The notes under the pieces were generated by a model. The model searched no databases, had not been told where the DNA came from, and worked only from the letters and a program-made list of their open reading frames with translations. Below are positions 1,245 through 50,620 of a stretch of DNA of 64,000 nucleotides, piece after piece. How positions within the stretch are numbered: the stretch's first letter is position 1; each line of letters opens with the position of its first letter. Origin of the DNA: Halobacterium rubrum (GTDB taxonomy: Archaea; Halobacteriota; Halobacteria; Halobacteriales; Halobacteriaceae); the NCBI RefSeq assembly GCF_021729015.1, contig NZ_JAJQQZ010000004.1, positions 186,001 to 250,000 on the forward strand. The letters run 5' to 3'. The translations under genes and the position numbers were made by a program.

Positions 1245-1247
1245 AAC

Positions 1248-2447
1248 TTACCTCGGCGAAGTATCTTTTACTTCCGGTTGAACCCCAGCTTGCTCGGGGC
1301 TCATTGGCTCTTTTCGTTCGAATGTGATCGAAGTTAGAATATCGATTACCCTGTCGGCTGCGCCTCCAGATCCGTAAATGAAGCTGGGGTCGTACTCACC
1401 GTGCTTGATTTGGGTTCTGAGCGCCTCTTCGATTGCCGACGTTTCGCACTCCACGTCCACCACGTTCGGACCGCGTTCTCTGTGCGATTGCCGATTACCC
1501 ACGTTCACTACAGGAGTTCCGAAGTACGAACATTCGCGAATCCCAACACTCGAGTTTCCGACAACACAAGCTGCGTTACTTACAAGTGTCAGGTAGTCTT
1601 TCGGCTCGAGATTGATAAAAAACCGCACTCCGTCTGGAGCCTTCTCCTCACGGTACTCGCGTATCGCCTTAGATACCTGATCTGTTCCGGCGTCCATATT
1701 CGGCCAGAACCAGAACACTTGCACGTCTAGTCTGTTTACTGCTTCAATCAACAATCGGGTCTTTTCGTAATTACTCTGGTACTCAGTCGGTAGCGGATGG
1801 TACTGCACAACAATGTATGGTTCATCTACATCAACCCGATCACCAACTCCGCCATATTCCTCTTGGGGGTCGTAGTGGTCAGACCGGTTCCGTTCAATCT
1901 CTGCCGCAATATCGATGGAGGGGCATCCAGTTCGATAAATCCTATCTTGATTTTCCCCGAGACTCTCCACAATTCTCTTGCTGCGCTCCGTCGACACAAA
2001 GTGATAATCCGACATCTTTGTCGTCGCGTGCCGGACTTTATCGTCGATCGAGCCAGTAATCTCACCACCCTCAAAGTGGCAGACGGGAACGTTCTGGTAA
2101 GAAGCTGCGAGGGTCGCCGCCATCGTCTCGAACCTGTCTCCAGTCAGAATCAACGCGTCAGTGTCGCATTCGTTGATAACGCTCGAATATTCGATTAATT
2201 CCAGACCGGTCGTTTTCGCTTGAGCAACGGGAGAGCCACCGTCGAGTAGATTCGTCAACTCGTGGTTGATCTCTAATCCGTCGCTCTTGAGAACGGGTCG
2301 AAGATCCCCGTAGTCATGCACAGTTGCTCCCCCGGATAACACGACTTCTAAATCGAGTTCGGTGGACTCCTGAATACCCAATAGAACGGTCTTGATTCGG
2401 GCGTATTGCGCCCTCGTGGTGAGAAAGGTGACTAGCTTTTCGGGCAT
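1248..2447 (-). CDS. neuC: UDP-N-acetylglucosamine 2-epimerase, hydrolysing (NeuC/LegG family)
   Basis: 399 aa, the usual length. The family releases UDP from UDP-GlcNAc (NeuC) or UDP-2,4-diacetamido-bacillosamine (LegG) with inversion at C2, giving the NeuB substrate. Visible motifs are TTRAQYARIK near residues 10-19, GDRFE (about 103-107), HFEGGEITGSIDD, TGCPSID, and the UDP-binding GNSSVGIRE with GTPVVNVG and RERGPN in the C-terminal half. It lies between neuA (60 bp upstream) and neuB (3 bp downstream). No LegB dehydratase, LegC aminotransferase or LegH acetyltransferase is present in the window, which mildly favours a simple UDP-GlcNAc substrate, but the operon continues off the left edge. 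Confidence 0.88.
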   Translation of the reverse strand: MPEKLVTFLTTRAQYARIKTVLLGIQESTELDLEVVLSGGATVHDYGDLRPVLKSDGLEINHELTNLLDGGSPVAQAKTTGLELIEYSSVINECDTDALILTGDRFETMAATLAASYQNVPVCHFEGGEITGSIDDKVRHATTKMSDYHFVSTERSKRIVESLGENQDRIYRTGCPSIDIAAEIERNRSDHYDPQEEYGGVGDRVDVDEPYIVVQYHPLPTEYQSNYEKTRLLIEAVNRLDVQVFWFWPNMDAGTDQVSKAIREYREEKAPDGVRFFINLEPKDYLTLVSNAACVVGNSSVGIRECSYFGTPVVNVGNRQSHRERGPNVVDVECETSAIEEALRTQIKHGEYDPSFIYGSGGAADRVIDILTSITFERKEPMSPEQAGVQPEVKDTSPR

Positions 2448-2507
2448 GTCTTACCGGTCTGCGCTTGGGTTCATATACCTGTTGTCAGCCACGCTTGATC
2501 ACCCAAA

Positions 2508-3221
2508 CTATAGACCTCTCTGCCGTGTCATGAACGCGTCAACTAACTCTAGTTCCCACTCCTCGTCGATTTGTAGTGACCGGCTCGGTGGCATTTTGTA
2601 CGCCTCTGTTTTACCGCTGTAGAACGTCTCACGCTTCCTCCAGAAGTCCACTGTGGACGCAAAGATTGCGCCGTTCGGGTACAGGAGATCGTTGAGGTCT
2701 TGTTCACGTACATACGAGTCTGAGAACAGCAGTTCCGGGGCAAACCGTTCCTCGAGATACCCGGCTTCGTTGCTTTGAACGGCATACTGGGGCGGTTCTG
2801 TAAAATCACTCACGCTCAACAGCGTATGGGCATCTGACTGGTGGAGTTTGTGCATCGAGTCGTCAATGTCGGCTGCCGACCTCAGTGGCGATGTTGGCTG
2901 TAACAGACAAACCGTTTCGAACTCTTCTCCGTGGTCTTTGAGCCAGTTCAGCGCGTGTGTGACTACTGCCGCGCTTGATGCCGTATCTGTTGCAAGTTCT
3001 GCTGGGCGGATGAACGGAGTGTCACCCCCATATTCCCGAGCTACACTTGCTATTTCTTCGTCATCAGTAGAAACGACAGTCCGTGTAAGGGTCTCTGACT
3101 TTTGGGCTTGTTCGATGGTGTGGGCGATGAGAGGTTCCCCTCCGACTTCCCGGATATTCTTCCGCTCTACCCGACTCGACCCTCCTCTCGCAGGAATCAA
3201 GCCCAGAATGTCAGCGTCCAT
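2508..3221 (-). CDS. neuA: CMP-nonulosonate cytidylyltransferase (acylneuraminate cytidylyltransferase)
   Basis: 237 aa from the ATG at 3221. A longer frame to 3269 adds 16 residues before the Rossmann start MDADILGLIPARGGS and is unlikely. The enzyme activates the acid with CTP to CMP-sugar. The nucleotide-binding IPARGGSSRVERKNI (about 9-23), LLQPTSPLR (about 103-111), PNGAIF and the C-terminal QIDEEWELELVDAF are classic for NeuA/LegF. It stands 60 bp after glmS and heads the neuA-neuC-neuB group. AT-richer than glmS upstream, suggesting the neu genes were joined to the amino-sugar block. Confidence 0.9.
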   Translation of the reverse strand: MDADILGLIPARGGSSRVERKNIREVGGEPLIAHTIEQAQKSETLTRTVVSTDDEEIASVAREYGGDTPFIRPAELATDTASSAAVVTHALNWLKDHGEEFETVCLLQPTSPLRSAADIDDSMHKLHQSDAHTLLSVSDFTEPPQYAVQSNEAGYLEERFAPELLFSDSYVREQDLNDLLYPNGAIFASTVDFWRKRETFYSGKTEAYKMPPSRSLQIDEEWELELVDAFMTRQRGL

Positions 3222-3281
3222 TGTTACCAGATTAGGCTGTACCCGACAATAGCAGTTCGGATTTACCACGGCGTTCTGACT

Positions 3282-5084
3282 TTACTCTACCGTGACGCTC
3301 TTCGCCAGATTCCGCGGCTTGTCGATGTTCCGTTCTAGAGCGTCCGCGACGTGGTACGCGAACAGCTGGAGGTAGACGTTCGCCACCAGCGGTTCCAACT
3401 CGCCCAGTTCCGGCACGTCGAAGCCGACGTCGAGGTAGGACTCGGCGTCGTCGAGTGAGGAGACGCCGACCACTGGCGCCCCCCGAGACTGGACCTCCTT
3501 GACGTTGTTGAGCGTCTCGCGCGGGTTCGCGCCGTCGGTGAGCGTAGCGAGAACCGGCGTGTCTTCCGTGACGAGCGCGAGTGTGCCGTGCTTCAGCTCG
3601 CCGCCAGCGAATCCCTCGGCGTGCGCGTAGCTGATCTCCTTGAGTTTGAGCGCGCCCTCCAAGGAGACCGGCATGCCGAGACGGCGACCGATGAAGAAGA
3701 ACGCGTCGCTGTCGGCCAACTCGTTCGCCGTCTCGCGGACGCGGTCGGCGTCGTCGAGGGCCTGCTGAATCGCTCCCGGCAGCCCCCGAACGTTCCGAAG
3801 GAGGGTGCTGGCTCGGTCTCCTGCGAGTGCTTCCCGCTCCCGTCCGATGGCGACGGTCAGCATCGAGAGCGTCGTGACCTGCGCGGCGAACGTCTTCGTC
3901 GCCGCGACGCCGATTTCGGGACCGGCACGGATGTAGACGACGTCGTTCGCTTCGCGTGCAGCCGTGCTGCCGACCGTGTTCGTCACGGCGACCGTGCGGG
4001 CGCCGGCGGCGTCGGCTTTCCGCATTGCACGCAGCGTGTCGGCAGTCTCGCCGCTCTGGGTCACTGCAACAACGAGTGTCCGCCACGGGTCTCGGCCGCC
4101 CGTGAACTCGTATTCGCTTCCGACCTCGACGGAGCACCGGACGTCGGCGTGCTCCTCGAGCAGTCGTTTGGCGTAGAGGCCCGCGTGATACGACGTCCCG
4201 CAGGCGACGATCTGGATCTCTTCGAGGCTTTTCAGGTAGTTCGAGGGGAGGTCAAGGTCGAGGTCCACGGTCCCGCTCGCGACGTCCAACCGTCCGGATA
4301 TCGTCTGCCGGAGCGCCTGCGGTTGCTCGTGAATCTCCTTCAGCATGTAGTGGTCGTAGCCAGCCTTCTCGGCGCTGTCAGCCTCCCAATCGACTGTCTG
4401 CGCCTCCCGGGTCACGCTGTCGCCATCCTGGCGGACGACGACGCTGTCGCCTGTCACTGCGGCGACGTCGCCGTCCTCGAGGAAGACCACGTCTTGGGTG
4501 TGTTCGAGGAACGCCGTAACGTCGCTGGCCACGAAGTTTGCAGCGTCCGATTCACCCACAACAAGCGGACTATCGCGTCGAGCGACCACGAGACCGTCGT
4601 ACCCGACGGCGGTGACCGCGAGGGCGAAACTTCCTTCAAGTCGGTCCACGACATCCTCGACGGCCGCAAGCAGGTCTTCGCCGTCGTAGCGCTCTTCGAG
4701 CAGGTGTGGCACGACTTCCGTGTCGGTCTCACTCCGGAACTCGTGACCGTCCTCCGCGAGCGAGGTTTTCAGTTCATCGTAGTTGTCGATGATGCCGTTG
4801 TGAACGACGGCGATGTCACCCGAGCAGTCCGTATGTGGATGGGCGTTTTCGTCAGTCGGCCGCCCGTGCGTGCTCCAACGCGTGTGTCCGACGCCAATCG
4901 AGGCGTCGTGGCGGTCGGGGAGGGTCAGACCGTCGATTTCGCCCGAACTCTTGAACACGTCAACGTCGCCGTCGAGAAGCGCTACGCCCGCAGAGTCGTA
5001 CCCGCGGTATTCGAGGTTCTTCAGACCGCTCGCAACCACCGGCAAGGCATCCTCGTCGCCCGCGTATCCGACAATTCCACACAT
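3282..5084 (-). CDS. glmS: Glutamine--fructose-6-phosphate aminotransferase (isomerizing)
   Basis: 600 aa, full length for the family. It makes glucosamine-6-phosphate from fructose-6-phosphate and glutamine. Met1 is followed by the nucleophile Cys2 (MCGIVGYAGDEDALPV). The N-terminal class II glutamine amidotransferase domain (about 1-220) has HTRWSTHG and HNGIIDNY. Two SIS domains follow, with GTSYHAGLYAKRLLE and SQSGETADTLRAM in the first and GRRLGMPVSLEGALKLKEIS in the second. The tail NLAKSVTVE is the conserved sugar-isomerase C-loop. It is 2 bp from the GlmU-like gene upstream, so it is co-transcribed with the nucleotidyltransferases and feeds amino sugar to the neu genes. In legionaminate pathways a GlmS paralogue (PtmF) serves a GDP route, so a dedicated role is possible. 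Confidence 0.95.
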   Translation of the reverse strand: MCGIVGYAGDEDALPVVASGLKNLEYRGYDSAGVALLDGDVDVFKSSGEIDGLTLPDRHDASIGVGHTRWSTHGRPTDENAHPHTDCSGDIAVVHNGIIDNYDELKTSLAEDGHEFRSETDTEVVPHLLEERYDGEDLLAAVEDVVDRLEGSFALAVTAVGYDGLVVARRDSPLVVGESDAANFVASDVTAFLEHTQDVVFLEDGDVAAVTGDSVVVRQDGDSVTREAQTVDWEADSAEKAGYDHYMLKEIHEQPQALRQTISGRLDVASGTVDLDLDLPSNYLKSLEEIQIVACGTSYHAGLYAKRLLEEHADVRCSVEVGSEYEFTGGRDPWRTLVVAVTQSGETADTLRAMRKADAAGARTVAVTNTVGSTAAREANDVVYIRAGPEIGVAATKTFAAQVTTLSMLTVAIGREREALAGDRASTLLRNVRGLPGAIQQALDDADRVRETANELADSDAFFFIGRRLGMPVSLEGALKLKEISYAHAEGFAGGELKHGTLALVTEDTPVLATLTDGANPRETLNNVKEVQSRGAPVVGVSSLDDAESYLDVGFDVPELGELEPLVANVYLQLFAYHVADALERNIDKPRNLAKSVTVE

Positions 5085-5086
5085 CG

Positions 5087-6235
5087 TTATCCCCTCCGCA
5101 CCTCTGCACCAGACGGTACTCTGTCGCTTACGGCGACGCCGGAGGCGATTCTCGCGTGATTTCCGACAACCGTCCCCGGGTCCAGAACGACACCACCGCC
5201 GAGCACGGCGTTGTCGCCGACGACGCCGCCGAGCCGAACGTCCCTGTGGACCTCGTCCTCGACGACGATGCGCGCGTCGCCCCCGACGACAGTCGAGTTC
5301 GGGCCGACAGTCGCGTTCTCGCCGACGATGCAGTCTCTGACGACGGCCCCCGCCTCGATGGTCGCATCGGGGAGAACGACCGCGTTCGAGACGACGGCGT
5401 TCGGGCCGACCGAGACGTTGTCGCCCAGCGCTACCCTGGGCTGGATTGTTGCGCTCTCCGCTACGTGCGCCGATTCTGCGGCGACGGCGGCGTCCGGAAC
5501 CCCTTCGCCTGCTGCACGCTCGTCCACTTGCGACACGACTGCCGCGTTCACAGACAGGAGGTCCCAGAGGTACGAGATGTCGAGCCAGTAATCACTGTAG
5601 CGAACGGCTGCGACACCCCCCTCACGCGCCATCGCGTCGAGCGTTGTGGTCAACTCGAGCTCGCTGGACGAGGACGTATCCGTCTCCCGAATCGCGTCGA
5701 AAATACCCTGCTCGAGCCCGTAAACGCCGGCGTTGATTACGTCGGAACGCGACTCGTCGACTCCTGGCTTCTCGTAGATCGCGTGGACCAGCTCGCCGTC
5801 CAGTTCCACGACGCCGTAGTTCCGCGCGTTGTCCACTCGCGTGACGCTCACGACGGGGGACTCGCCGTCCCAGACGCGGTCGACGACTGCGGACACGAGC
5901 GAGTCGTCGATGACTCGGTCGCCGTTCAGCACGACGAAGGGCTCCGAGACGAAGTTCTCGGCCTGGAGGACGGCGTGTCCGGTCCCGAGCTGGGTGTCCT
6001 GAACGGCGTACTCGATGTCGACACCCCAGTCGTCGCCGTCCCCAAAGTACGTCTGGATGCGGTCGCGCTCGTAGCCGACCACGAAGACGACCTCTTGGAT
6101 TCCCGCGTCCGCGACGGCCTCGAGGACGTGTTCGAGTACCGGTCGATTCCCGACCGGGAGCATCGGCTTCGGCCTGCGTTCGGTCAACGGACGGAGTCGA
6201 TTCCCCTCCCCGGCTGCGAGTATCACTGCCTTCAT
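5087..6235 (-). CDS. Bifunctional sugar-1-phosphate nucleotidylyltransferase/acetyltransferase (archaeal GlmU-like), copy 2
   Basis: 382 aa from the ATG at 6235, which overlaps the previous stop as ATGA. A longer upstream frame is only Arg-rich shadow sequence. The N-terminal Rossmann domain (1-230) has the signature LAAGEGNRLRPLT with PKPMLPVGNRP, VLNGDRVIDD and INAGVYGLE. Residues about 255-380 form a left-handed beta-helix of imperfect hexapeptides. The family makes UDP-GlcNAc from GlcN-1-P, acetyl-CoA and UTP. The helix lacks the longer acetyltransferase tail seen in copy 1 (no GRRKLGVVCGDD-type end), so it may be only a uridylyl/thymidylyl transferase. Confidence 0.82.
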   Translation of the reverse strand: MKAVILAAGEGNRLRPLTERRPKPMLPVGNRPVLEHVLEAVADAGIQEVVFVVGYERDRIQTYFGDGDDWGVDIEYAVQDTQLGTGHAVLQAENFVSEPFVVLNGDRVIDDSLVSAVVDRVWDGESPVVSVTRVDNARNYGVVELDGELVHAIYEKPGVDESRSDVINAGVYGLEQGIFDAIRETDTSSSSELELTTTLDAMAREGGVAAVRYSDYWLDISYLWDLLSVNAAVVSQVDERAAGEGVPDAAVAAESAHVAESATIQPRVALGDNVSVGPNAVVSNAVVLPDATIEAGAVVRDCIVGENATVGPNSTVVGGDARIVVEDEVHRDVRLGGVVGDNAVLGGGVVLDPGTVVGNHARIASGVAVSDRVPSGAEVRRG

Positions 6236-7428
6236 TCGTTGTCGTTCTCCATGACTGTCTCTCCTGGCGCCGTCGTCGCACCACCTGCGAGTTTCACGCC
6301 TGCGTTCAGACTCGTGTTGATGCCTGTCTTCACATCGTCGCCACACACCACGCCGAGCTTCCGCCGGCCGGTGTCGACTGACCCGCCTTTGACGCGCATC
6401 GTGACGTTCGCGTCGTCGTGCCGGAGGTTTGCCACCTTCGTGCCGGCACCGAAGTTCACATCCGACCCGAGCACGCTGTCGCCTACGTACGAGAGGTGGC
6501 CGACAGTCGCCCCTGGGAACAGGACCGAGTTCTTCACCTCCACCGCGTTCCCGACGCGACTGTCCTCCCCTATCACTGTCGTCCCACGCACGAAGGCGTT
6601 CGGGCCGACATCGGCGCCGGCCTTGACGACTACCGGCCCCTCGATGTACGTCCCGTCTCGAATCCGGGCGCCCTCCTCGACGACAACTGGGCCGTTCAGG
6701 GTCACTCGGTCCTCCACCGTGCCGTCGACCGCCCTATCAAGTCCCGAGAACAAGCGTTCAGTTGCTTCGATGACTTCCCAGGGGCGACCCACGTCGAGCC
6801 ACGTCCCGTCGTGTTCCACGACGGACACAGTCTCTCCCCACTCCAGAAGCGTCGTGACCGCGTCGGTGACCTCGTACTCGCCGCGCTCACTCTCGTCCAC
6901 GGCGTCTATACCCTCGAAGATTGTCGGCTCGAAGGCGTACAGCCCGAGATTCGCGAGCGAGCTCGGCGGGTCGTCGGGTTTCTCGACAAGCCCTGACAGC
7001 TCGCCCTTGTCGACGGAGACAACACCGTAGTTCGAGGGATTCTCGACCGGCATCGTCGCCACCGCGTGACCACTCGACGCTGCGAGCGACGAGACGAGCG
7101 AGTCGTCGACGACGACGTCTCCGTTCAACACGAGGAACTGCTCGTCTATCACCTCCTCAACACAGGCTATCGCGTGCGCGGTCCCGCGCTGTTCGCGCTG
7201 CTCGACGTACGATATCGGGATGCCGGAGAACTCCTGGCCGATGTGTGACTGCACGTCCTCTGCCTCGTAGCCGACGACGAGTACGAACTCGTCGACTACG
7301 CCGCTGCTCGCTGCCATGACGTGCTCCACGAGTGGTCGGCCAGCTACCGGGACGAGCGGCTTCGGTCGCGTCTCCGTCAACGGTCGGAGTCGCGTCCCTT
7401 CACCGGCCGCGAGAACGACCGCCTTCAC
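6232..7428 (-). CDS. glmU: Bifunctional sugar-1-phosphate nucleotidylyltransferase/acetyltransferase (GlmU-like), copy 1
   Basis: 398 aa. Nucleotidyltransferase domain: LAAGEGTRLRPLT (7-19), RPKPLVPVAGRP, VLNGDVVVDD, ENPSNYGVV, LVEKPDDPPS and WLDVGRPW. The beta-helix runs from about 240, ending with VGHLSYVGDSVLGSDVNFGA, a conserved KVANLRHDD segment and GRRKLGVVCGDDVKTGINT, typical of archaeal GlmU acetyltransferase domains. It overlaps aglF upstream and copy 2 downstream, both by ATGA, so the three are translationally coupled. The expected product is UDP-GlcNAc for N-glycans and the NeuC reaction. Two tandem paralogues suggest one has moved to another sugar. Confidence 0.85.
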   Translation of the reverse strand: MKAVVLAAGEGTRLRPLTETRPKPLVPVAGRPLVEHVMAASSGVVDEFVLVVGYEAEDVQSHIGQEFSGIPISYVEQREQRGTAHAIACVEEVIDEQFLVLNGDVVVDDSLVSSLAASSGHAVATMPVENPSNYGVVSVDKGELSGLVEKPDDPPSSLANLGLYAFEPTIFEGIDAVDESERGEYEVTDAVTTLLEWGETVSVVEHDGTWLDVGRPWEVIEATERLFSGLDRAVDGTVEDRVTLNGPVVVEEGARIRDGTYIEGPVVVKAGADVGPNAFVRGTTVIGEDSRVGNAVEVKNSVLFPGATVGHLSYVGDSVLGSDVNFGAGTKVANLRHDDANVTMRVKGGSVDTGRRKLGVVCGDDVKTGINTSLNAGVKLAGGATTAPGETVMENDNE

Positions 7429-8144
7429 GCCTCGGCCTCCTGCAACCGCTGCTCCGCCTCGTCCCTGTCCTCGGGGTAGCCGACGTCGATCCGCCAGCCG
7501 TCCATCGGAATCGCGTCTATTGTCCGTCCGCTCTTGATGAGCAGGTCGACCGCGTCGGAGAGTTCGTACTCGTCTCGGTTAGACGGCTGGACAAGCTTGC
7601 ACGCGTGGAAAATTGCTGGCGAAAACGTGTAGAACCCAGTCATCACAAGGTTGCTCGGCGGATCGTCGGGCTTCTCGACGACCTCTTCAATCTCGCCGTA
7701 ATCGTTCGTGTCACAGACGCCGTACCGGCTCGCCTCCTCCCAGTCGACTTCTTCTACCAGGAATGCTGCGTCCGCCCGGTCTTCCAGCTGGCGACTCACG
7801 ACGTCCTCGAGGTTCGCCTGGAAGATGTTGTCCCCGAGCATCAGCATGAAGTCGTCGTCGACGTGCTCCTCGGCCTTGAGGAGGGCGTGGGCCAGTCCCT
7901 TCTGCTCGCGCTGGTGAGCGTACGTGATGGGGACGCCCTCGAACTCGTCGCCGTAGTGGCTGATGATGTTCTGCTTTCGATAGCCGACAATCACGACGAG
8001 CTTGTCGGCGCCGAGTTCAACGAGCTGCTCGAAGCAGTGAGTGAGGATGGGTTTTCCTGCGACTTCTACCATCCCTTTTGGTTTCTCCTCGGTAAGGGGG
8101 CGGAGTCGGGTGCCTTCTCCAGCAGCGAGGATAACTGCTTGCAT
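7425..8144 (-). CDS. aglF: Glucose-1-phosphate uridylyltransferase, AglF type
   Basis: 239 aa from the ATG at 8144, which has a GAGGAG Shine-Dalgarno 4 bp upstream and the family N-terminus MQAVILAAGEGTRLRPLT. The extra 15 residues of the longer frame sit over the promoter. Single nucleotidyltransferase domain: EEKPKGMVEVAGKPI, LMLGDNIF, VEKPDDPPSN and WRIDVGYPEDRDEA. In Haloferax AglF makes UDP-glucose for the S-layer N-glycan, and AglM (also here at 12.7 kb) oxidises it to UDP-glucuronate. The gene heads the ATGA-coupled series leading to glmS. Confidence 0.85.
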   Translation of the reverse strand: MQAVILAAGEGTRLRPLTEEKPKGMVEVAGKPILTHCFEQLVELGADKLVVIVGYRKQNIISHYGDEFEGVPITYAHQREQKGLAHALLKAEEHVDDDFMLMLGDNIFQANLEDVVSRQLEDRADAAFLVEEVDWEEASRYGVCDTNDYGEIEEVVEKPDDPPSNLVMTGFYTFSPAIFHACKLVQPSNRDEYELSDAVDLLIKSGRTIDAIPMDGWRIDVGYPEDRDEAEQRLQEAEA

Positions 8145-8167
8145 AGCTCCTCTTTGATACCGCGTCT

Positions 8168-8178
8168 TTAAATATATT
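8168..8178 (-). promoter_or_regulatory. Candidate TATA box for the aglF operon
   Basis: The AT-rich stretch read on the plus strand as tttaaatatat stands about 25-35 bp upstream of the aglF ATG in otherwise GC-rich DNA. It lies in the 65-bp gap after the flippase stop, so the aglF-glmU-glmS-neu genes can be transcribed separately from the flippase. Confidence 0.5.
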
Positions 8179-8209
8179 TCAACCCACAACTTTATTTCAC
8201 AGATATAAA

Positions 8210-9646
8210 TTAGGGATTAAGTTCTTCGGCTGGGAGCATAGGTAATTCGTAGGGGATATTTTCATTGACTGTTTTTCTGAATTTCACTGATATAATTAAT
8301 AGGGTCAGGAAATACGCCAGAGCGCCGAGACCAGATAATAGTATTCCAAGAGGAATTGTGTTTTCGAAGTAGAGGCGATTTGGTAGAACAACCGCCGCCA
8401 TCACTCCCGAAGCAAGGATCTGATTGGCAATTTCACGCTTAGGAATCGGAACTTCGATTAGGTTAGAGAGGTATGAGTATCCGAGAATTGTCCCGACCAG
8501 AGCCGACAAGGCCGTGGCAAAAGCGGCGCCGTACCAACCGAAATTCGCGGTCAGGGCAAAGTTCAATATCAAATTCAGTGTAACGAAGACTACGTTGATT
8601 CTGAAAGTTAACTCGGGGCGATCCAACGCATCAATTGTGTTCAACAACTGACTTTGGTACCCGTAAATTAGGCGGGCAATACTCAGTATGATGAGAATGT
8701 AATATCCTGAAGCAAATCCTTCACCATACACCCGTAAGATTATATCGCCTAGAAGCGCACTGCCAACAACGCCGGGTACAATAATTAATCCTGAGTAAGT
8801 CAGGCCTTCGCGGAGTAAACTTGTGACCTCAGACTTATTATCGCGTGAGGCTAGCGAACTCATCTCTGGGAACAATGTTCGCTGTATCGCTACACTGAAC
8901 GTTGCAAAGATGGATGCCAGGTTCCAAGCGGCTTTATATCCGCCTACGACCGAATTTGTAAGGAAGACTGCCAGTATTAGAGTGTCCATGGACATGAACG
9001 TCTGTCCACGGATGTGGGCAAACCATGAGAACTGAGCGTACGATTTTAATCGCTTAAAGTCTTCTATTGAAGGTGTAGTAAATCTGGTATTGACAAAATA
9101 CGCCCCAACAACCGTGGTAGCAACAGCCCCAAACAGATATCCTGCAAAGGCACCTGCCAACCCTAACCCAGCCAGAACGAGGATAATCTGTACGATGCTC
9201 TGTACCGTCTTTTGAAATGGTTGTAGAAGACTCGAAATGTGCACCATGTGCTGCCCGTCTAGAATAGACCACACGAGACCCACTGATAGCTTGACCAACA
9301 AGAGAGCAATTACGATACCCGTCGCTTGAATGCCCATGTAATCGTTCAGAATTGGGCGAATCAGCCAGAGAATAATCGCCACGGCACCAAACAAAAATAG
9401 CTGAGTGATTACGCCCGGGATGACGTAGTCGACTCCGTCGTCTTCGCTTACTCGCTTCTTTAGAGCTGCGCCGATACCCAAATTGCCAGCAACTGCCGCC
9501 CAAGCTAAGACTGACATGACCACGACGTATGCCCCAAACTGTTCACGGCCGAGGAATCGCGTGAGTACAACAGTACCGAAGAACCCGGAGAAAGAAACCG
9601 TTAGTTTCGAGAGAAACGAAATAACTGATGTTCGACCGTATCTCAT
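8210..9646 (-). CDS. Oligosaccharide flippase (Wzx/MATE-like polysaccharide transporter)
   Basis: 478 aa. The start at 9646 gives MRYGRTSVISFLSKLTVSF, the usual amphipathic entry helix. An upstream extension of 180 residues in the same frame is Ser/Arg-rich shadow of aglJ and was discarded. About 12-14 hydrophobic helices fill the chain, e.g. TQLFLFGAVAIILWLI near 90-105. The fold is that of Wzx-type flippases moving lipid-linked glycans across the membrane; the haloarchaeal analogue in Haloferax is AglR. Clearly AT-richer than aglJ and glmS, so it probably came with the variable glycan genes. It diverges from aglJ across about 115 bp. Confidence 0.82.
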   Translation of the reverse strand: MRYGRTSVISFLSKLTVSFSGFFGTVVLTRFLGREQFGAYVVVMSVLAWAAVAGNLGIGAALKKRVSEDDGVDYVIPGVITQLFLFGAVAIILWLIRPILNDYMGIQATGIVIALLLVKLSVGLVWSILDGQHMVHISSLLQPFQKTVQSIVQIILVLAGLGLAGAFAGYLFGAVATTVVGAYFVNTRFTTPSIEDFKRLKSYAQFSWFAHIRGQTFMSMDTLILAVFLTNSVVGGYKAAWNLASIFATFSVAIQRTLFPEMSSLASRDNKSEVTSLLREGLTYSGLIIVPGVVGSALLGDIILRVYGEGFASGYYILIILSIARLIYGYQSQLLNTIDALDRPELTFRINVVFVTLNLILNFALTANFGWYGAAFATALSALVGTILGYSYLSNLIEVPIPKREIANQILASGVMAAVVLPNRLYFENTIPLGILLSGLGALAYFLTLLIISVKFRKTVNENIPYELPMLPAEELNP

Positions 9647-9761
9647 TGATTCATCACCCCGAGGTGCGTGGTCAGTTGTTTCTGTTCGGCCACGTATCAA
9701 TAACCCGCTTCGCTGCCGCCGAAGAAAACGCTTTTGCGCCCACCCCGTCCACGCCAAGGCA

Positions 9762-43760: not shown

Positions 43761-43953
43761 ATTCTTGGTTTATTATGGAAATTAAATCCACATAGCGCCA
43801 GTATTCTGAATTCTGCAAGCGATGTCTCGACGGATATTCCGTAGGTAGTTGTTTGGTGAGCAAGTCGAGATCTGCGGCGAGGTCCGCAAACAACTGTTCA
43901 ATTTGATGAGGGGTCAGGCATCTGCGGAGTCGTTGGTAATGGTTGGCCGGCAC
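43690..43953 (-). pseudogene. Unassigned short ORF, possibly a gene fragment
   Basis: 87 codons from a GTG. The middle part (QIEQLFADLAADLDLLTKQL, then SEYWRYVDLISIINQE) looks protein-like, but the C-terminal 25 codons run antisense through repeat D1, and I recognise no family. Probably the remains of a gene cut by the rearrangement that left D1. Confidence 0.3.
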
Positions 43954-44026
43954 GCAGGAACGGAGTAACTCTCAGATACGGTAAGAGAGGCTGTTCCCGC
44001 GCGGACCAGGCAGCGAGTTATCGTAT

Positions 44027-44212
44027 CTAATCTGCGCCCCTGGTGAAACGTGTCGACATCAATGTCGAGGTTCGCCATGCGTTCTCTGAATCGGGATGAT
44101 TCGAGCAGACCGAAATGAAGTCCTCGTCTTCCCAGTTGTGGCGAATAATGCCGACTAGAACCGCTAGACTGTCGACTTTGTCGTACAGCGAACCCGCGGT
44201 GTCGTTTATGAG
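44027..44212 (-). pseudogene. Unassigned coding remnant after the HAD gene
   Basis: An open frame beginning inside the HAD gene continues 60 residues beyond its stop with a protein-like composition: SLYDKVDSLAVLVGIIRHNW then DEDFISVCSNHPDSENAW. No start codon outside the HAD gene is available, so it is either a decayed 3' half of another gene or chance. The 43.6-44.2 kb interval otherwise holds only site A and D1. Confidence 0.28.
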
Positions 44213-44610
44213 TGGATGAAGTCGTCTTCTTCTTCCAGGAGCTCTTGAATCTCCTCGGGTGTGTTGTTCAGGAGCTCGGAGGGCCGTATTGCCTTGTCGT
44301 CGACGTAGAAGCCCTCGTGACCACACCACGGCTTCCCGTAGTGAATCTCGTCGTAAGGGATATCGTGTTCATCCAACCACTGCAGAAGCGTCTTCGCGGT
44401 ATCCGCATTGATCTTGCCGAGACGCCCCTCATGCGTATTCATATTCCGTGCCGTATAGAGCATGATGTAGTACCCCTGCTCGTCGTATTCGCGGAGCGTC
44501 TCGACGACGTCCGGGTGGGGAACACGGTCTTCGTAGTCACGGTTACCGTCCTTCTTGCAGATGACACCGTCTATATCGAACACCACTCGCTTATCTTTTG
44601 GCGGAGTCAC
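44206..44610 (-). CDS. HAD-family phosphatase, capsule/LPS-type
   Basis: 134 aa. VVFDIDGVICKKDGNRDYED carries the nucleophile DxD near residues 11-13; YYIMLYTARNMNT is motif II; PWCGHEGFYVDDKAIRPSE has the motif III/IV Lys and Asp. Such short caps-less HADs occur in sugar-nucleotide clusters where they remove a phosphate from a sugar phosphate. It ends the five-gene glycan operon, 38 bp after the fusion enzyme. Confidence 0.8.
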   Translation of the reverse strand: MTPPKDKRVVFDIDGVICKKDGNRDYEDRVPHPDVVETLREYDEQGYYIMLYTARNMNTHEGRLGKINADTAKTLLQWLDEHDIPYDEIHYGKPWCGHEGFYVDDKAIRPSELLNNTPEEIQELLEEEDDFIHS

Positions 44611-44648
44611 GTTTAGACCCGATTACCGGAAGTATAGAAAAGTAGCGG

Positions 44649-46325
44649 TTAGGGGGTGTGTGGAGCGAACTTCTCGATGCCCTGCGCGAGCATACACTGC
44701 TGCCGCTGGAAACTGTCGCCGTGCAGCGGCACCATGCTCAAGAACAACAGCGCCTCGATGAGTTGTACCGCTTTGACGTCGGCGTCAGTCTCGGCGGCCA
44801 GCATCGTGTCGAACCGTTGCTCTCGTTCTTTCTGGCCGTCCGTCGTGTAGATGTTGTAGGTCAACGCGGTGTCGTTCTCGCTGCCGCTGGCCTCGAATCT
44901 ACCGTTGATGAGGTGTTCGTAGTGGCCGACGACACTATGCCGGAGTTTCGCCAGGTCGTACCGTGGATCGCCGTAGATGTCGAATGGCCCGAACTCGCCA
45001 CGCGGGTCAATGAGCTTCAGAATCTCGTTGCGTGGGTCGTAGAGGACATTCGGGAGACAGAGATCGCCGTGGATGACAGAAACCGAGTCCATATCAAGCA
45101 ACCCGACGTCCGCGACCACGTCATCCAGGCAGTCCAGTATTTGGCTGAGGCCGGGGTGGGGTTCGCCGTTTATGTGGACGGTATCAGCGTCGAAGAACGG
45201 CTGGAATCGGGCATTCTCGCGTAGACGGTCGAGGCGACGCCGAGTCTTCCCCAAGTACATATCGCGAAGCGCGCTCTGGATTTCCGCTTGGCTGGCGTCT
45301 GCGCTGTACGTCATGAACTCCGCGTGCATACTGAACAGCCGGTCGAATACGTCATTCCAAATGTGCTGGCGGTGAGACCCGTACAGTTGTAGGTCACTCA
45401 ACGATGGATACCCGATGTACTCCATCTTTACGTACGCGTCTGCAGGTGAAGTTGAGGCGTCGTAGATTCGTGGAAGATACGGCTGCAGGCCAGTAGGGAT
45501 GTTCTCGTACCAGGAAATCTCGTTGATGAGCGTCTCGGTGTCGTTGCTGCGTTTCGTGATTACGTTTTTCCCGTGGTTCTCAAGCTCGTTGAACTCACGA
45601 GCGTTCAGGAACCGCTTTTTTGCCCGGTGGTAGGTGTCGAGGTGGCCGACGTCCAGCCACGTTTCGGGCTGGTAGAGTTCGTACGTTCGCGGTTCGAGGT
45701 AAGAGAGTAGTGCCCGGTAGAAGTAGTCGAGACCGCTGTCCAACTCGGCCGGCGTGTCCTGCATCGCGTCGAAGAACGCGCCGGCATCAGCAAGCCCGAA
45801 CTGGCCTGTGAAGCACGGCTGCGGACAATCCTGCGACCGCTTGTTTTTCTGGGTCGCGTTGGTGATGCGGTCGCTCTCGATGTCGAACGTTGTCCAGCGG
45901 TACGTCCGGTCGCGCTCCTGGTAGGCGACAATGCTCCTGTCATCAACCGTTCGCAGTGGTGAGATGAGCGTATCTGCGAAGTTCAGGTACACTGAGCGGT
46001 CTATAAGCGACTCCTCGTTAAAGGCATCCAGAGCCGTGTAGACCGTTTCGCCGAGCGACTGGGTGCCTGTGGCGTCTACCACCGTCCACTCGTAGTCACT
46101 CCGGGCGACGTACGTCTCGATGGAGTCAGCCGACTCGCCAACGGCGACGACCCGCGTTACGTCGTGGTCGCTGTAGGCTTCCGCGAGCCGTTCCAGCATC
46201 GGTTTCCCGTCGAGAGGAATCATCCCCGTTGGTACGGCGCCGACGTCGAGGCGGAGCTCGTCAGCAACTTGAATCGCGGACGGGACGATAAGGAGGTCGT
46301 CCCCAGGGTCGGTTGGCGTGGGCAT
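44649..46325 (-). CDS. Fusion of a nucleotidyltransferase-like domain and an aminoglycoside-phosphotransferase-like kinase
   Basis: 558 aa. Residues about 1-235 are an NTP-transferase fold (GMIPLDGKPMLERLAEAYSD, TGTQSLGETVYTALDAF, YLNFADTLISPL) but lack the canonical GxGTRL loop, so uridylyl transfer may be altered or lost. Residues about 255-540 are an APH/choline-kinase fold: VIHGDLCLPNVLYDPRNEIL (catalytic HGD-x4-N) and LIDPRGEFGPFDIYGDPRYD (Mg-binding DPR/DPRYD). The combination of kinase and nucleotidyltransferase on one chain would activate a small alcohol or sugar for a glycan. Substrate unknown. Confidence 0.8.
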   Translation of the reverse strand: MPTPTDPGDDLLIVPSAIQVADELRLDVGAVPTGMIPLDGKPMLERLAEAYSDHDVTRVVAVGESADSIETYVARSDYEWTVVDATGTQSLGETVYTALDAFNEESLIDRSVYLNFADTLISPLRTVDDRSIVAYQERDRTYRWTTFDIESDRITNATQKNKRSQDCPQPCFTGQFGLADAGAFFDAMQDTPAELDSGLDYFYRALLSYLEPRTYELYQPETWLDVGHLDTYHRAKKRFLNAREFNELENHGKNVITKRSNDTETLINEISWYENIPTGLQPYLPRIYDASTSPADAYVKMEYIGYPSLSDLQLYGSHRQHIWNDVFDRLFSMHAEFMTYSADASQAEIQSALRDMYLGKTRRRLDRLRENARFQPFFDADTVHINGEPHPGLSQILDCLDDVVADVGLLDMDSVSVIHGDLCLPNVLYDPRNEILKLIDPRGEFGPFDIYGDPRYDLAKLRHSVVGHYEHLINGRFEASGSENDTALTYNIYTTDGQKEREQRFDTMLAAETDADVKAVQLIEALLFLSMVPLHGDSFQRQQCMLAQGIEKFAPHTP

Positions 46326-46341
46326 AGTAGGTTCGAGAGCG

Positions 46342-47061
46342 TTATTCAGGCGTGAACTCGGGGTCGAATTCGCGGAGGTCTTCAGGGGTACCTAGAACGT
46401 GAACGTCGTCTCGATCCAAGTCGTAGGGAAGCACCGTCTTCCCGTGGTCAATCAGGTAGTTGTAGAGCGGGGCGACGTATGTTTCGCCGTACTCCCGTTC
46501 AACCTGGGCCGCGCTGTGCTCGTATGCGTCGACGAGCTCCGCCCACTGGTCGAAGTAGTAGAAGCCGGCAGTCGCAAGGTCGGAGATTTTCTCTTTCTCA
46601 GACACCTCTGTGGCGTGGCCGTCGTCGTCCGTCTTGATGAAGCTCCACCGTTCGCCCGACGCCGTGAACGACGGGATGAACCCGTCGCCGTCGATGTCTT
46701 CGGGAGTCAGCGATCCTTCTTCGATGTAGGTGTCGATATTGTAGATTGCGACCGCGTTATCGTCATTAATATGATCGTCGGCGGCGAGCGCGGTCTGTGC
46801 TTGACCGTTGGTGTACTCGTCGAGCACGACTTCGGTGTAGTCCGCGATGCCAAGTTGCGAGCATGCGTCAGCGAGGAAGCCAGAGGCGTCGTGGTCGGCA
46901 TGCGTGACGAAGATGAACTCCTCGTTGTAGAATGCCTCGAGGCTCCGCATTGCCCAATCGAACATAGGGTCTCCTTTAACGAGGATTTCGTGCTTCGGAG
47001 ACGTGACACCGACTTCCCTGAAGCGGCTGCCTCGTCCCGCCATCGTCACGAGAACTTTCAT
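46342..47061 (-). CDS. Sugar-phosphate nucleotidyltransferase
   Basis: 239 aa from the ATG at 47061 (MKVLVTMAGRGSRFREVG) with AGGAT just upstream; four more residues from a TTG are possible. The pyrophosphorylase motif is VTMAGRGSRF..TSPKHEILVKGDPM, then NDDNAVAIYNIDTYIEEG (metal Asp) and FYYFDQWAELVDAYEHS. It differs from the GlmU/AglF type of region 1 and fits the family acting on glycerol- or heptose-type sugars or dTDP sugars. 16 bp before the fusion gene. Confidence 0.78.
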   Translation of the reverse strand: MKVLVTMAGRGSRFREVGVTSPKHEILVKGDPMFDWAMRSLEAFYNEEFIFVTHADHDASGFLADACSQLGIADYTEVVLDEYTNGQAQTALAADDHINDDNAVAIYNIDTYIEEGSLTPEDIDGDGFIPSFTASGERWSFIKTDDDGHATEVSEKEKISDLATAGFYYFDQWAELVDAYEHSAAQVEREYGETYVAPLYNYLIDHGKTVLPYDLDRDDVHVLGTPEDLREFDPEFTPE

Positions 47062-47248
47062 ATCCTGAGCCAACTCTTTCAGAACCTATTATTGTGTCGC
47101 CTTCCGCTTCGGAAGCCCATGTAGCGACATATTTCTGCCCCGCCAACGGTTGATGATTCTATGCCACAGGTACGAACGTCGGCTTGCGAAATCCGTTCAC
47201 CGTTTGGAGACTGGTATACGACCGTTCGCGATCCTAGAGTTTCGGTTA

Positions 47249-47320
47249 CGGCTGCGGAACTGTGGGGAGTATCTTGGAATTTCGGCCTAACTACATCTCT
47301 AACGGGGAAATCTAATCCCG
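47249..47320 (+). repeat. Repeat R1 (degenerate member of the R family)
   Basis: CGGCTGCGGAACTGTGGGGA, then a divergent middle, then CTAACGGGGAAATCTAATCC. Aligns with R2 at 51546-51618 over about 70 bp. The hairpin found in R2 and R3 (GTGGC-CTTA-GCCAC) is lost here by several changes (GGCCTAACTACA). It fills most of the gap between the nucleotidyltransferase start and the deacetylase stop. Confidence 0.55.
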
Positions 47321-47342
47321 AAAGAACTGAAGAGCTACCAAC

Positions 47343-48296
47343 TTACTGCATTTCGTGGCTATTCACACCGCCCGATGCGTCACCGTGTCGAAACTCGTTA
47401 CAATCGTAACGGGGGAGTGCTTGCGGTTGCGTTTGGAAATCGTCCTGCTGTATGTCTCTCGATTCGACATTAAAACTGAACAAGCACCCGGCGTCGTCGA
47501 GGACGCCGCGGGTATACTCCGTGAACGTATGGAACCCACCATACGGATAACAGAACGTTCTCACATCTAACCCGTCAACTACCGTTGAAAGGTAGTCAAA
47601 AGACGAAATAATCTCGTCTCGTTGGGCTGACTGCGATAGTTTTGAGAATACTCGGTGCGTGATAGAGTGGGACCCAAGGATCATCCCAGCGTCCTGCATT
47701 TCTCTAAGTTCTGCTGGCCGCAGATAGAATGTCTCAGAGTCAAGGTTTGCGGCGGGGAACTGCTCGCAGAGCGTGTTCAAAACGTCTTCGCGGTGCTCAT
47801 AGGCGATGAAGTAGTTGAGAATACGCTTGACTGTGGTGACGCTCTCGCGGTTATTCTGGTTCTGGTAGGTTTCAGTGTGGAACTCTTCACGGCGCGCGTC
47901 CGGTACCATCTCCTCGTTTACAACGTTTAGCAGCGGTTCAAGAACTGCGTCGCCACCGTACTTCCCGACGAGTGCGTGGACACGATGCACACTCAACGCC
48001 TTCTCTTGGGTGTAGGGGCTGGTCGGAACATAGAAGATACCCCAGAGACCTCGGCGCTGTAATTCCGGGAACACCCACTCATAGTGGTCAGAGAGTCCAT
48101 CATCGAACGTAAGAACAACACCGTCCGGTAGGTCAGCGTCTCCACGGACTGCGGCAAGGAACGCGTCCCGATCGACGAACCCGTACTCGTCCTCAAAGTA
48201 GTCGAGCTGCGCCCGAAAATCCTCAATATCGAGATGATAGTACCAGGGCGCGTTGGATACGTCTGGCCGGACGTAGTGATACATCACCGCCTTCAT
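47343..48296 (-). CDS. Polysaccharide deacetylase (NodB fold)
   Basis: 317 aa. Motif 1 TFDDGLSD (about 63-70, Asp-Asp), motif 2 SHSITHRVF (His pair, about 218-226), motif 3 FCYPYGGFHTFTEYT, and LPRYDCNEFRHG near the end. Cytoplasmic: no signal peptide, so it may act on lipid-linked or nucleotide-linked amino sugars rather than on polymer. MKAVMYHYVRPDVSNAPWYY start typical. It overlaps the formyltransferase by ATGA: deacetylation then formylation of an amino sugar is the likely pair. Confidence 0.85.
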   Translation of the reverse strand: MKAVMYHYVRPDVSNAPWYYHLDIEDFRAQLDYFEDEYGFVDRDAFLAAVRGDADLPDGVVLTFDDGLSDHYEWVFPELQRRGLWGIFYVPTSPYTQEKALSVHRVHALVGKYGGDAVLEPLLNVVNEEMVPDARREEFHTETYQNQNNRESVTTVKRILNYFIAYEHREDVLNTLCEQFPAANLDSETFYLRPAELREMQDAGMILGSHSITHRVFSKLSQSAQRDEIISSFDYLSTVVDGLDVRTFCYPYGGFHTFTEYTRGVLDDAGCLFSFNVESRDIQQDDFQTQPQALPRYDCNEFRHGDASGGVNSHEMQ

Positions 48297-49111
48297 CGCG
48301 ACTTGACGACAGGGTTTTTCACAAGCGGTACGTCCGTTGTCCGTTCGGCCTGTTCTGCGAGGTAGTCATCAACCAACCCATCCTCAAAGTTCTTATACAG
48401 TTGGTCCGTCGCTTCTGTCGAATAGTCAGACGTCGTGTAGTAGTGCTCGTTGTCGGGCATCTCAGGTTGTTTCATCTTCTCCAAGTCACCAAACTTTGTG
48501 ATAATCTCGCGATACGGCCAGACTATGTCCGCGATGAGACGGTTCCCGATTTGGTGGGGGGTATCGCCGGGTTTGACGCGCGCTCGGATTTGATGGATGA
48601 TGTCGCCTGTGTCGACACCTGCGTCAAGGTGCATGAATGTCGCGCCAACGCACTCCGGTTCGCCATTGACGAGCGGCCAGAAGTTCGTCCCCGTTCCCCG
48701 GTAATAGGGCGAGAGGCCAAGGTGAACGTTCAAGAACCGTCCCTCGTATTCGGAGAGAAGAGGGTCTTCTATGATAGAGCAACCGTAGGCGACTAGCAGG
48801 TCGGGGTCAAGGTTGACGATTTCCTCGTAGTACTGCTCTTCGTTAATCTCGCCGTTTGGAATCTCCTTGGGATTTGAGTGGTCGGGAGTATAGTCAACGA
48901 AGTGCCGGAAGAAGTCGTCTTCAGACTCTGCACGCGCTTCTAGATGTTGGACTTTGACCTCGTCGCCTTCCTCACGAACGCGGTCAAGCGTTGACCCCTC
49001 AGTACTCTCGCAGTAGGTACGCAGAACGTTGATATCGTCATCAAGCGCGATTGCTTTTCGGACAAATTGGTGGCGGAGTTCGGAGTTTGTTAGGATAATT
49101 ACGTCAGCCAT
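48293..49111 (-). CDS. Formyltransferase (methionyl-tRNA/sugar N-formyltransferase-like)
   Basis: 272 aa from the ATG at 49111 (MADVIILTNSELRHQFVRKA). The active-site trio is present: Asn-His in FLNVHLGLSPYYRGTGTN and Asp in LDAGVDTGDI, with Tyr-rich substrate loop. Archaea lack formyl-Met initiation, so a sugar N-formyltransferase (as in QdtF, VioF, WlaRD for formamido sugars) is expected. The paired deacetylase would provide the free amine. Donor is N10-formyltetrahydrofolate, which haloarchaea can make. Confidence 0.82.
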   Translation of the reverse strand: MADVIILTNSELRHQFVRKAIALDDDINVLRTYCESTEGSTLDRVREEGDEVKVQHLEARAESEDDFFRHFVDYTPDHSNPKEIPNGEINEEQYYEEIVNLDPDLLVAYGCSIIEDPLLSEYEGRFLNVHLGLSPYYRGTGTNFWPLVNGEPECVGATFMHLDAGVDTGDIIHQIRARVKPGDTPHQIGNRLIADIVWPYREIITKFGDLEKMKQPEMPDNEHYYTTSDYSTEATDQLYKNFEDGLVDDYLAEQAERTTDVPLVKNPVVKSR

Positions 49112-49308
49112 ACTCCGCCTCAGATGGAGGATGCATTTAGAAATTTCTGATTTCCCACTAGATATAGGACTCGGTACGAGTGACTGGAGATCACCCAACG
49201 TACCACATTAAACGCCTCTACTTTGGCTGTCTTCACTTCCCCTACAAGCATAAATCCAGTGGTAGATGTGTCTTACGCAGGGAGTCACTAGGATACATGT
49301 TGAAGAAT

Positions 49309-49419
49309 TCAGAAACCCGAGTGGTCGTGGTTGCCAGACACACAAACCCGGCCATTGATGCCGCCGGGCGAGATCTCGACGACGAGACGGTCGGCGCAGT
49401 CTGTGCAGCACCGGATCAC
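49309..49419 (-). CDS. Very small zinc-knuckle protein
   Basis: 36 aa from a GTG at 49419 that overlaps the stop of the upstream tiny gene as GTGA. It reads IRCCTDCADRLVVEISPGGI then NGRVCVSGNHDHSGF, with CCxxC and later Cys and His residues. Below the usual length cutoff, but overlapping start-stop and Cys pattern on both tiny genes argue for real genes. Such two-gene pairs of zinc ribbons are found on haloarchaeal viruses. Confidence 0.5.
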   Translation of the reverse strand: MIRCCTDCADRLVVEISPGGINGRVCVSGNHDHSGF

Positions 49420-49532
49420 GGGCGGCACACCCCGGATTCGCGGGCGGCGCAGAACTGCCCCTCGTAGCCGATCCAGCAGCCGCAGTACCGACAGATGTCT
49501 CTCTCGTCGGTATCAGTGCGGCTACTCACCAC
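49416..49532 (-). CDS. Very small zinc-finger protein
   Basis: 38 aa from one of two adjacent GTG codons (49532 or 49529), preceded by a purine-rich GGGGGTGG. The sequence SRTDTDERDICRYCGCWIGY followed by EGQFCAARESGVCRP has four to six Cys in a CxxCxC..C..C pattern. It is overlapped by the next tiny gene. Typical of mobile-element accessory proteins. Confidence 0.5.
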   Translation of the reverse strand: MVSSRTDTDERDICRYCGCWIGYEGQFCAARESGVCRP

Positions 49533-49585
49533 GACCACCCCCGTTCAGACGGGCGTGGCTACTGGTGAACGATGCAGCGAAGAAA

Positions 49586-49633
49586 GCGGCAAAAGCAGCC
49601 GCTTTACTTTTATATGAAGTGGGGCCGTAGGGA
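49586..49633 (+). repeat. Site B: copy of the hairpin and tRNA-Trp 3' flank
   Basis: GCGGCAAAAGCAGCCGC is a perfect 5-bp stem (GCGGC/GCCGC) followed by TTTACTTTTATATGAAGT then GGGGCCGTAGGGA. The tRNA-Trp flank at 53885-53931 reads the same way: GCGGCAAATGCCTCCGC, AATACTTTTTT, GCAGTATGGGGCCGGAGGGA. Order, spacing and most bases agree. The plus-strand hairpin plus T-tract also looks like a terminator, carried along with the attachment sequence. Confidence 0.5.
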
Positions 49634-49670
49634 CAACGTCGGCGTCTCCGCAGGTGCCGGCGACGATTGA

Positions 49671-49712
49671 TTCTTTCAGGTGTGGCTAAGGCCACCAATT
49701 CAAAGCACACCG
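49671..49712 (-). repeat. Repeat R3, inverted member of the R family
   Basis: On the minus strand it reads GGTGTGCTTTGAATTGGTGG then CCTTAGCCACACC, matching R2 (GGAGTGTTTTGGAATTGTGG, CCTTAGCCACACC). The inner hairpin GTGGC-CTTA-GCCAC is kept and an alternative outer stem GGTGTG/CACACC is exact, while R2 has GGGGAGTG/CACACCCC. A TATA-like CTATATCC on the minus strand lies about 25-30 bp upstream. Confidence 0.5.
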
Positions 49713-49825
49713 TACAGTCCACAGACGCGGATATAGATTCTACGTACTTCCAACGTTGAGAACGGAAAATGGACCGGGTAGGGTCGTTCTCGCTGAAAGC
49801 TATTGTAGCGAGATTAGTTCGCTAC

Positions 49826-50452
49826 TTACAGCGTAACGGCGTTCTTGTCTTTGAGGGATTCGGGGACGGTTGCCCAGTAGGTTGTCTTCGACCCGTACTG
49901 GGTTGTTAGCGTCAGCTGGACCTCGTCACCTGCACCGAGACCGTCGGTAATGCCGATTTCGGGGTCACTAGTGGATTTGTTAGTTTGATTCGTTCCTCCC
50001 GCGAAGAGGACCACAGAGATACGGTCGGACTGCTGGACCAGCACGTCACTATTGTCGCCCTTGACGTTCTCTGTGTAGAACTCGTCGGAACTGTTCAGGG
50101 CGTTAGCTGAAGTGTTGTGGGTGAGCGTGACTGCCTTGTCTGGACCAATCCACTGGATAGTGGATTTGCTGAGGTTGATGTTGTCCGCACCAGCGGCCTG
50201 CCGCACTGTCAGGTTCACGAAGTCAACGGATTCACCACTGACGTTACCGTAGGCGGAGACGACGTCGATGCGGTTAGAGACCTGTGCGCTGGCTTCTTCC
50301 CCGGTCGCGCTGCCTTTCGACTGGAGGAAGCCAGCCGTGTTGATGAGGACACCGGCGGCAATGGCGGCGACCAGCACCATCGCGATGAACACGATGAGTG
50401 TGCCGATCCCGACCTGACCGCGCTCGTCCTCGTCGTTGATAAACTCGAACAT
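49826..50452 (-). CDS. Archaellin (archaeal flagellin), copy 2
   Basis: 208 aa from the ATG at 50452. The first 65 residues, including signal peptide [12 protein letters not shown] and core helix [18 protein letters not shown], and the last 35 ([25 protein letters not shown]) match copy 1 nearly exactly; the middle (about 75-165) differs and is longer by a dozen residues. Six N-glycosylation sequons (N-L-T, N-L-S, N-T-S, N-S-S, N-Q-T, N-K-S) against five in copy 1. TATA-like TTTATTTA about 35 bp upstream of the ATG. It lies in the island, with no motor genes. Confidence 0.93.
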
Positions 50453-50620
50453 TCTGGCTACAACCATATGGCAGCAGAGTACCCTAAATAAACCCTCGCT
50501 CGTAATTATCTAGACTGGAAATTGGAGGAGCGACACGGGTAGTACAAAGTTTGCAACCAATGCTGATTTTCCAATAGTCTCACACCTACGTGGGGTTACG
50601 CGTCCGAGAACGTGCTCGCC

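Follow-up and report, generated by a model that had tools for sequence, protein, structure and literature searches.

Five co-directional genes of Halobacterium rubrum comprise two separate glycan modules

Five glycan genes lie in a low-G+C island

The stretch of DNA analysed here, referred to as the window, spans 64,000 nucleotides of contig NZ_JAJQQZ010000004.1 from the haloarchaeon Halobacterium rubrum. Between 43.6 and 52 kb, the window contains a low-G+C island (approximately 52–61%, with flanks of approximately 70%) that holds five intact genes, all on the minus strand. These encode a sugar N-formyltransferase of 272 aa (FMT, 48293–49111; PF00551, E = 2.5e-17), a NodB-type N-deacetylase of 317 aa (DAC, 47343–48296; PF01522, E = 2.5e-16), a stand-alone nucleotidyltransferase (NT, 46342–47073, with a likely ATG start at 47061; PF00483 and PDB 4evw), a pseudo-nucleotidyltransferase fused to an APH-type kinase (FUS, 44649–46325; AlphaFold, fold search and motifs) and a small EcbF/BcbF-like phosphatase (HAD, 44206–44610; TIGR01689 and PDB 1xpj). 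Here, FMT and DAC are called module A, and NT, FUS and HAD module B. The start of DAC overlaps the stop of FMT as ATGA, NT and FUS are separated by 16 nt, and FUS and HAD by 38 nt. A preceding sequence-only reading had placed the five genes at these positions, noted the overlap and proposed a single operon. The positions, overlap and shared direction hold, but with 281 nt between DAC and the NT start codon, the genes do not form one tight operon.

Two features had been overlooked in that reading. Directly downstream of HAD is the decayed start of a fourth module B gene (43945–44209, minus strand; tblastn E = 6e-16). At its left end, the window carries three minus-strand genes (222–3269) that are probable partners of module A: a NeuB/LegI-type nonulosonic acid synthase (222–1244; PF03102, 244 bits; TIGR03569, 319.7 bits), a NeuC-type UDP-GlcNAc 2-epimerase (1248–2447; TIGR03568, 335.6 against a cut-off of 235.9) and a NeuA-type CMP-nonulosonate synthetase (2508–3269; PF02348, 86.7 bits). 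Two further stretches considered as decayed genes, 47062–47345 and 49112–49830, showed homology only within their own genome, and a promoter and terminator scan was uninformative because its models are bacterial and the host is archaeal. One archaellin gene (49826–50467) also lies within the island. Archaellin had been named as a possible glycan target, for which we found no evidence tying the five genes to this neighbour.

Catalytic motifs and domain architecture

Both module A proteins scored well above the cut-offs of their families. FMT reached 63.7 bits with PF00551 (cut-off 26.1), and its catalytic N-x-H and Asp residues align with those of WbkC and PseJ, both among its best PDB matches; PseJ is a formyltransferase named after pseudaminic acid. 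DAC reached 60.2 bits with PF01522 (cut-off 23.1) and contains the metal motifs TFDDG and HSxTH (HSITH), the latter being of the HxxxH form.

In module B, NT matched PF00483 with 24.2 bits (cut-off 21.2) and PDB entry 4evw with an E-value of 2e-33. Its motifs are intact (MAGRGSRF...PKH...NIDT...EKEK, representing the GxGxR loop, the Lys, the metal Asp and the EK pair), and it belongs to one distinctive subfamily that is conserved, with intact catalytic residues, in approximately 50 loci containing the trio of NT, FUS and HAD. HAD matched TIGR01689 (E = 3e-43) and PDB entries 1xpj (E = 6e-41) and 9iqw (E = 4e-9). It resembles the EcbF/BcbF family (TIGR01689; 1xpj) in its length, its DxDG and DD motifs and its capsule-type context, but its score of 146.7 bits falls under the curated cut-off of 162. 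A literature search on EcbF/BcbF, 1XPJ and 4EVW returned nothing relevant.

The AlphaFold model of FUS (pLDDT 93.6, pTM 0.91) agrees with the proposed fusion: a nucleotidyltransferase-like domain at residues ~10–240 is followed by an APH-type kinase at ~243–556. Its first domain folds like a sugar nucleotidyltransferase, with HddC (5xhw) as the best match and 4evw as another. The sequence-only reading had reported that this domain lacks the GxGTRL loop, and none of 53 full-length relatives carries GxG[T]R. Because the loop is absent while the metal-site residues D118 and D225 are invariant in these relatives and Lys 160 is kept in 44 of them, the first domain may have remained able to bind a sugar while making no use of an NTP. 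The kinase residues K258, H419, D421, N426 and D440, which comprise the catalytic Lys, the HGDxxxxN motif and the metal Asp, are invariant in all 53 relatives. With PF01636 (APH), FUS itself scored 19.3 bits, below the cut-off of 23.2, and the relative in locus L036 scored 34.2. Some Selenomonadaceae and related loci (L106, L107, L114 and L121) encode the kinase domain alone, in proteins of 324–349 aa located beside NT; lacking the dead nucleotidyltransferase domain, they are natural tests of whether it is needed.

The five genes are not linked in other genomes

In a search of 392 genomes of the order, four genomes besides that of H. rubrum proved to encode full-length relatives of FUS. NT, FUS and HAD occur together in three of these, and the fourth (L035) has FUS and HAD, with no NT beside them in its ORF calls. 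No FMT or DAC was found beside the trio in any of the four, and at other loci, relatives of FMT and DAC are found with each other but not with the trio. One genome, G300, contains both sets on different contigs: the trio on C1, and a DAC relative and a formyltransferase on C3, within a nonulosonate cluster. The G+C content of FMT and DAC (0.53) is close to that of neuB, neuC and neuA (0.51–0.55) and differs from that of NT and FUS (0.575–0.59).

The five genes are thus two unrelated glycan modules, as we found no linkage of all five that is common to other genomes. The sequence-only reading had itself named missing linkage in relatives as grounds for refuting its view. It had combined the genes into one pathway for an N-formylated amino sugar plus an activated non-sugar substituent; in such a pathway, a LicA/LicC-like kinase and cytidylyltransferase would handle an amino alcohol. 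Choline kinases belong among the APH kinases. Together with the shared direction of the genes and the presence of LicC (1jyk) among the fold matches of the first FUS domain, this gives the single pathway some appeal. In the same fold search, however, sugar nucleotidyltransferases ranked above LicC, a LicABC-type scheme leaves the HAD phosphatase without a clear role, and no other examined genome links the five genes. We therefore regard a single pathway as improbable; an activated non-sugar substituent is conceivable for module B, but an NDP-sugar is likelier. The explanation we favour overall, and consider reasonably probable, is that the two modules are separate, module A producing an N-formyl nonulosonic acid and module B an NDP-sugar. 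Both would feed surface glycans, probably N-linked ones that depend on AglB.

Module A is associated with nonulosonic acid genes

Full-length relatives of DAC were present in nine other haloarchaeal genomes, at 32–55% identity. Each of the ten genomes that have a DAC of this kind encodes NeuB, compared to 72 of the 392 genomes of the order (18%), and in nine of the ten it was located within approximately 15 kb of the DAC relative. Eight of nine retrieved regions show the DAC relative, through ORF calls or search matches, clustered with NeuC- and NeuA-type genes, and most of these clusters also contain NeuB, a LegC-like aminotransferase or formyltransferases; these neighbour roles were read from sequence, except for NeuC, NeuB and NeuA of L185. 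A count by eye gave at least 22 haloarchaeal NeuB loci with a formyltransferase match no more than 10 kb away.

Genome G137 (L185) holds the nearest relatives of both FMT (65% identity) and DAC (55%), side by side and in unchanged order, with NeuC and NeuB before them and NeuA after. The window's NeuB and NeuC likewise have their nearest relatives in this cluster (54% and 58% identity, respectively, versus 38–39% and 32–36% for the other clusters). In the window, FMT and DAC lie 44 kb from neuB, neuC and neuA, a distance that speaks against their partnership. The neu genes adjoin GlmS, GlmU-like and AglF genes and a flippase, and aglB (TIGR04154, 835 bits) is located just left of the window; positions 222–9690, together with 4326–7622 of L198, are part of an N-glycosylation region.

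The families, catalytic motifs and linkage to NeuB, NeuC and NeuA in relatives agree with the earlier suggestion of glycan decoration involving N-formylation. From these we infer the substrate, the order of steps and the N5 position: FMT and DAC most likely replace the N-acetyl group of a nonulosonic acid with N-formyl. DAC would take the N-acetyl group off a compound formed along, or at the end of, the NeuC/NeuB/NeuA pathway, and FMT would re-acylate the amine with a formyl group from N10-formyl-THF, giving an N-formyl nonulosonic acid. No LegB- or LegC-type genes were identified near the NeuB, NeuC and NeuA genes of the window, so the sugar may be of the Neu or the Leg type; the best DegT-type aminotransferase is 77 kb away (C4:108991).

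FMT and DAC might instead act like ArnA and ArnD, with the formyl group as a transient tag that DAC removes, leaving a free amine on the final sugar. ArnD is a deformylase of the NodB fold, the ArnA formyltransferase is among the PDB relatives of FMT, and the overlap of the two genes would suit such a pair. We nevertheless consider this unlikely, as the surrounding clusters encode NeuB, NeuC and NeuA and not an Ara4N pathway, and one haloarchaeon is known to carry an N-formyl nonulosonic acid as a finished sugar. In Halorubrum sp. PV6, 5-N-formyl-legionaminic acid terminates the S-layer N-glycan, and a formyltransferase was proposed in the same study (PMC6137143). The sequence-only reading knew of no such combination in an archaeon; its N-formylated amino sugar component had already been published for Halorubrum sp. 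PV6 (PMC6137143). Like the locus described here, the PV6 N-glycosylation cluster near aglB contains NeuB, NeuC, NeuA and a formyltransferase candidate. The two differ in that here FMT and DAC are 44 kb removed, with LegB and LegC not identified nearby, and in that DAC is present here, while the word "deacetylase" does not occur in the main text of the PV6 paper (PMC6137143). Acetyl-to-formyl exchange by FMT and DAC would fit a known kind of glycan synthesis and add an assignment for a missing enzyme, the deacetylase. The two proteins are a concrete candidate pair for the exchange behind haloarchaeal N-formyl nonulosonic acids.

Module B is widespread in bacteria

A scan of a sequence collection yielded 325 FUS relatives, of which the best 80 were kept. 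Of 87 FUS loci from many phyla, 57 had HAD as a neighbour, 51 had an NT with the loop, and 41 had the two together; these counts are affected by the shortness of many contigs and by NT variants that the loop pattern does not catch. The trio is also found in E. coli O-antigen clusters of the O20/O137, O78 and O92 types, in similar loci and in K loci. These share with the window the same three genes, including a loop-less fusion and an intact NT, but differ in gene order, in their sequence (FUS 25–26% identical, HAD 48–56%) and in that NT often carries the annotation glycosyltransferase family 2. Two examples of the latter in E. coli O-antigen clusters are L129 9811–10566 and L131 11031–11735, whose motifs indicate a misannotated nucleotidyltransferase, and the O78 cluster contains an unnamed member of the same NT subfamily (L130 8994–9728).

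In a tree built from 73 FUS sequences, those of the five haloarchaea group as a clade (100/99). Its sister is a sequence from an Anaerolineales bacterium (100/98) that has the same four genes and is placed among bacteria, and thaumarchaeal FUS forms a separate clade. These placements suggest that FUS was likely transferred between domains, with midpoint rooting alone bearing on the direction. Module B of H. rubrum is a haloarchaeal member of a widespread, functionally undefined module, which brings together genes named "capsular biosynthesis protein", "aminoglycoside phosphotransferase" and "glycosyltransferase family 2". In Enterococcus pallens, HAD and FUS with NT are present three times (L083, L084 and L085). 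NT relatives that are paired or fused with a second nucleotidyltransferase-like protein, beside a different HAD phosphatase, occur in Rhizobium, Pseudomonas, Acetobacter plasmids and cyanophages (L136 5248–6732, L137, L138 and L139), possibly as a sister module.

A decayed fourth gene has an intact homologue

The fragment at 43945–44209 matches the first 90 residues of a protein of approximately 390 residues in two frames with an internal stop (tblastn with the L035 protein), and the remaining ~300 aa are absent beside HAD. Intact or as a fragment, the fourth gene is found at four of the five haloarchaeal FUS loci and at the sister Anaerolineales locus. Its family is weakly GT2-like, with a sub-threshold GT2 match. 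This frameshifted remnant beside the trio raises the question of whether module B is decaying and non-functional in this strain. We think this very unlikely, as NT, FUS and HAD are intact with conserved catalytic motifs, and the fourth gene has an intact homologue on the same contig (G000:C4:259192–260307, L210), which stands alone between transposase-like genes. The intact copy is 52% identical to the protein of G055.

A proposed NDP-sugar pathway related to phage genes

The domains, motifs and conservation of the trio agree with the kinase, phosphatase and nucleotidyltransferase logic put forward in the sequence-only reading. Because these three activities occur together, as in the heptose pathway, module B should make an NDP-sugar. 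It resembles the GDP-D,D-heptose pathway (HddA, GmhB and HddC) in this logic and in HddC being the top fold match of the first FUS domain, but its kinase is of the APH and not the GHMP type, and no sedoheptulose isomerase is linked to it. We infer the order of reactions, the partnership and the transferase as follows. The APH domain of FUS would phosphorylate a sugar or sugar phosphate, HAD would remove the other phosphate, and NT would couple the resulting sugar-1-phosphate to an NTP. By analogy with GMPPA, which acts as partner of GMPPB, the dead domain of FUS would probably be a sugar-binding scaffold or a partner of the active NT. The GT-like product of the fourth gene would probably transfer the sugar, with the intact copy at its separate site on the contig now as its source.

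As to the sugar itself, acid-labile sugars occur in O-antigens and in the Vibrio core. Fructose and xylulose donors, which these sugars suggested, were dropped, as the literature gave nothing usable, and for the Pasteurella type B capsule it gave no structural information. A further candidate comes from phages. RB69 and Acj61 (RB69 ORF53_52c, p051 and ORF055c) also encode a HAD phosphatase and a nucleotidyltransferase/APH fusion, homologous to HAD (E = 1e-10) and to the kinase domain of FUS (E = 3e-9). In RB69, these genes lie next to an Ara5P isomerase, and the phage DNA carries arabinose (PMC6024577), the linkage of which was later revised (PMC13390438). The sugar precursor for phage DNA arabinosylation was still called unclear in 2026 (PMC13390438). 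In contrast to the phages, NT is a separate gene in H. rubrum, with no isomerase linked. Moreover, the fusions of RB69, Acj61 and 9183 keep the nucleotide loop that FUS lacks, and the phage search found no separate NT gene in any of the three. This would fit a history in which FUS lost its loop once a separate NT had taken over.

Across approximately 89 cellular loci, no convincing Ara5P (SIS) isomerase was found near the trio, either in a Pfam neighbour scan (top 25 families) or by BLAST with the RB69 and Acj61 isomerases; there was one partial SIS match (L126). We therefore rejected isomerase linkage as proof of arabinose; with no such linkage to the trio in genomes of cellular organisms, arabinose is only one candidate. 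More speculatively, module B may be a new NDP-sugar pathway common to bacterial capsules and O-antigens and haloarchaeal glycans, with a variant in arabinosylating phages, in which the dead FUS domain is an obligate partner of NT and which yields an activated pentose, for instance arabinose; we hold this fuller scheme to be rather unlikely. The module is one conserved set across bacterial phyla and haloarchaea, related to phage DNA-arabinosylation genes, and solving its product in one system would aid annotation in many. RB69 p051 (L134 1709–2095) is annotated as a "phosphoheptose isomerase" but is actually a HAD phosphatase, in agreement with whose sequence is the one printed for PDB 9iqw ("capsule biosynthesis protein").
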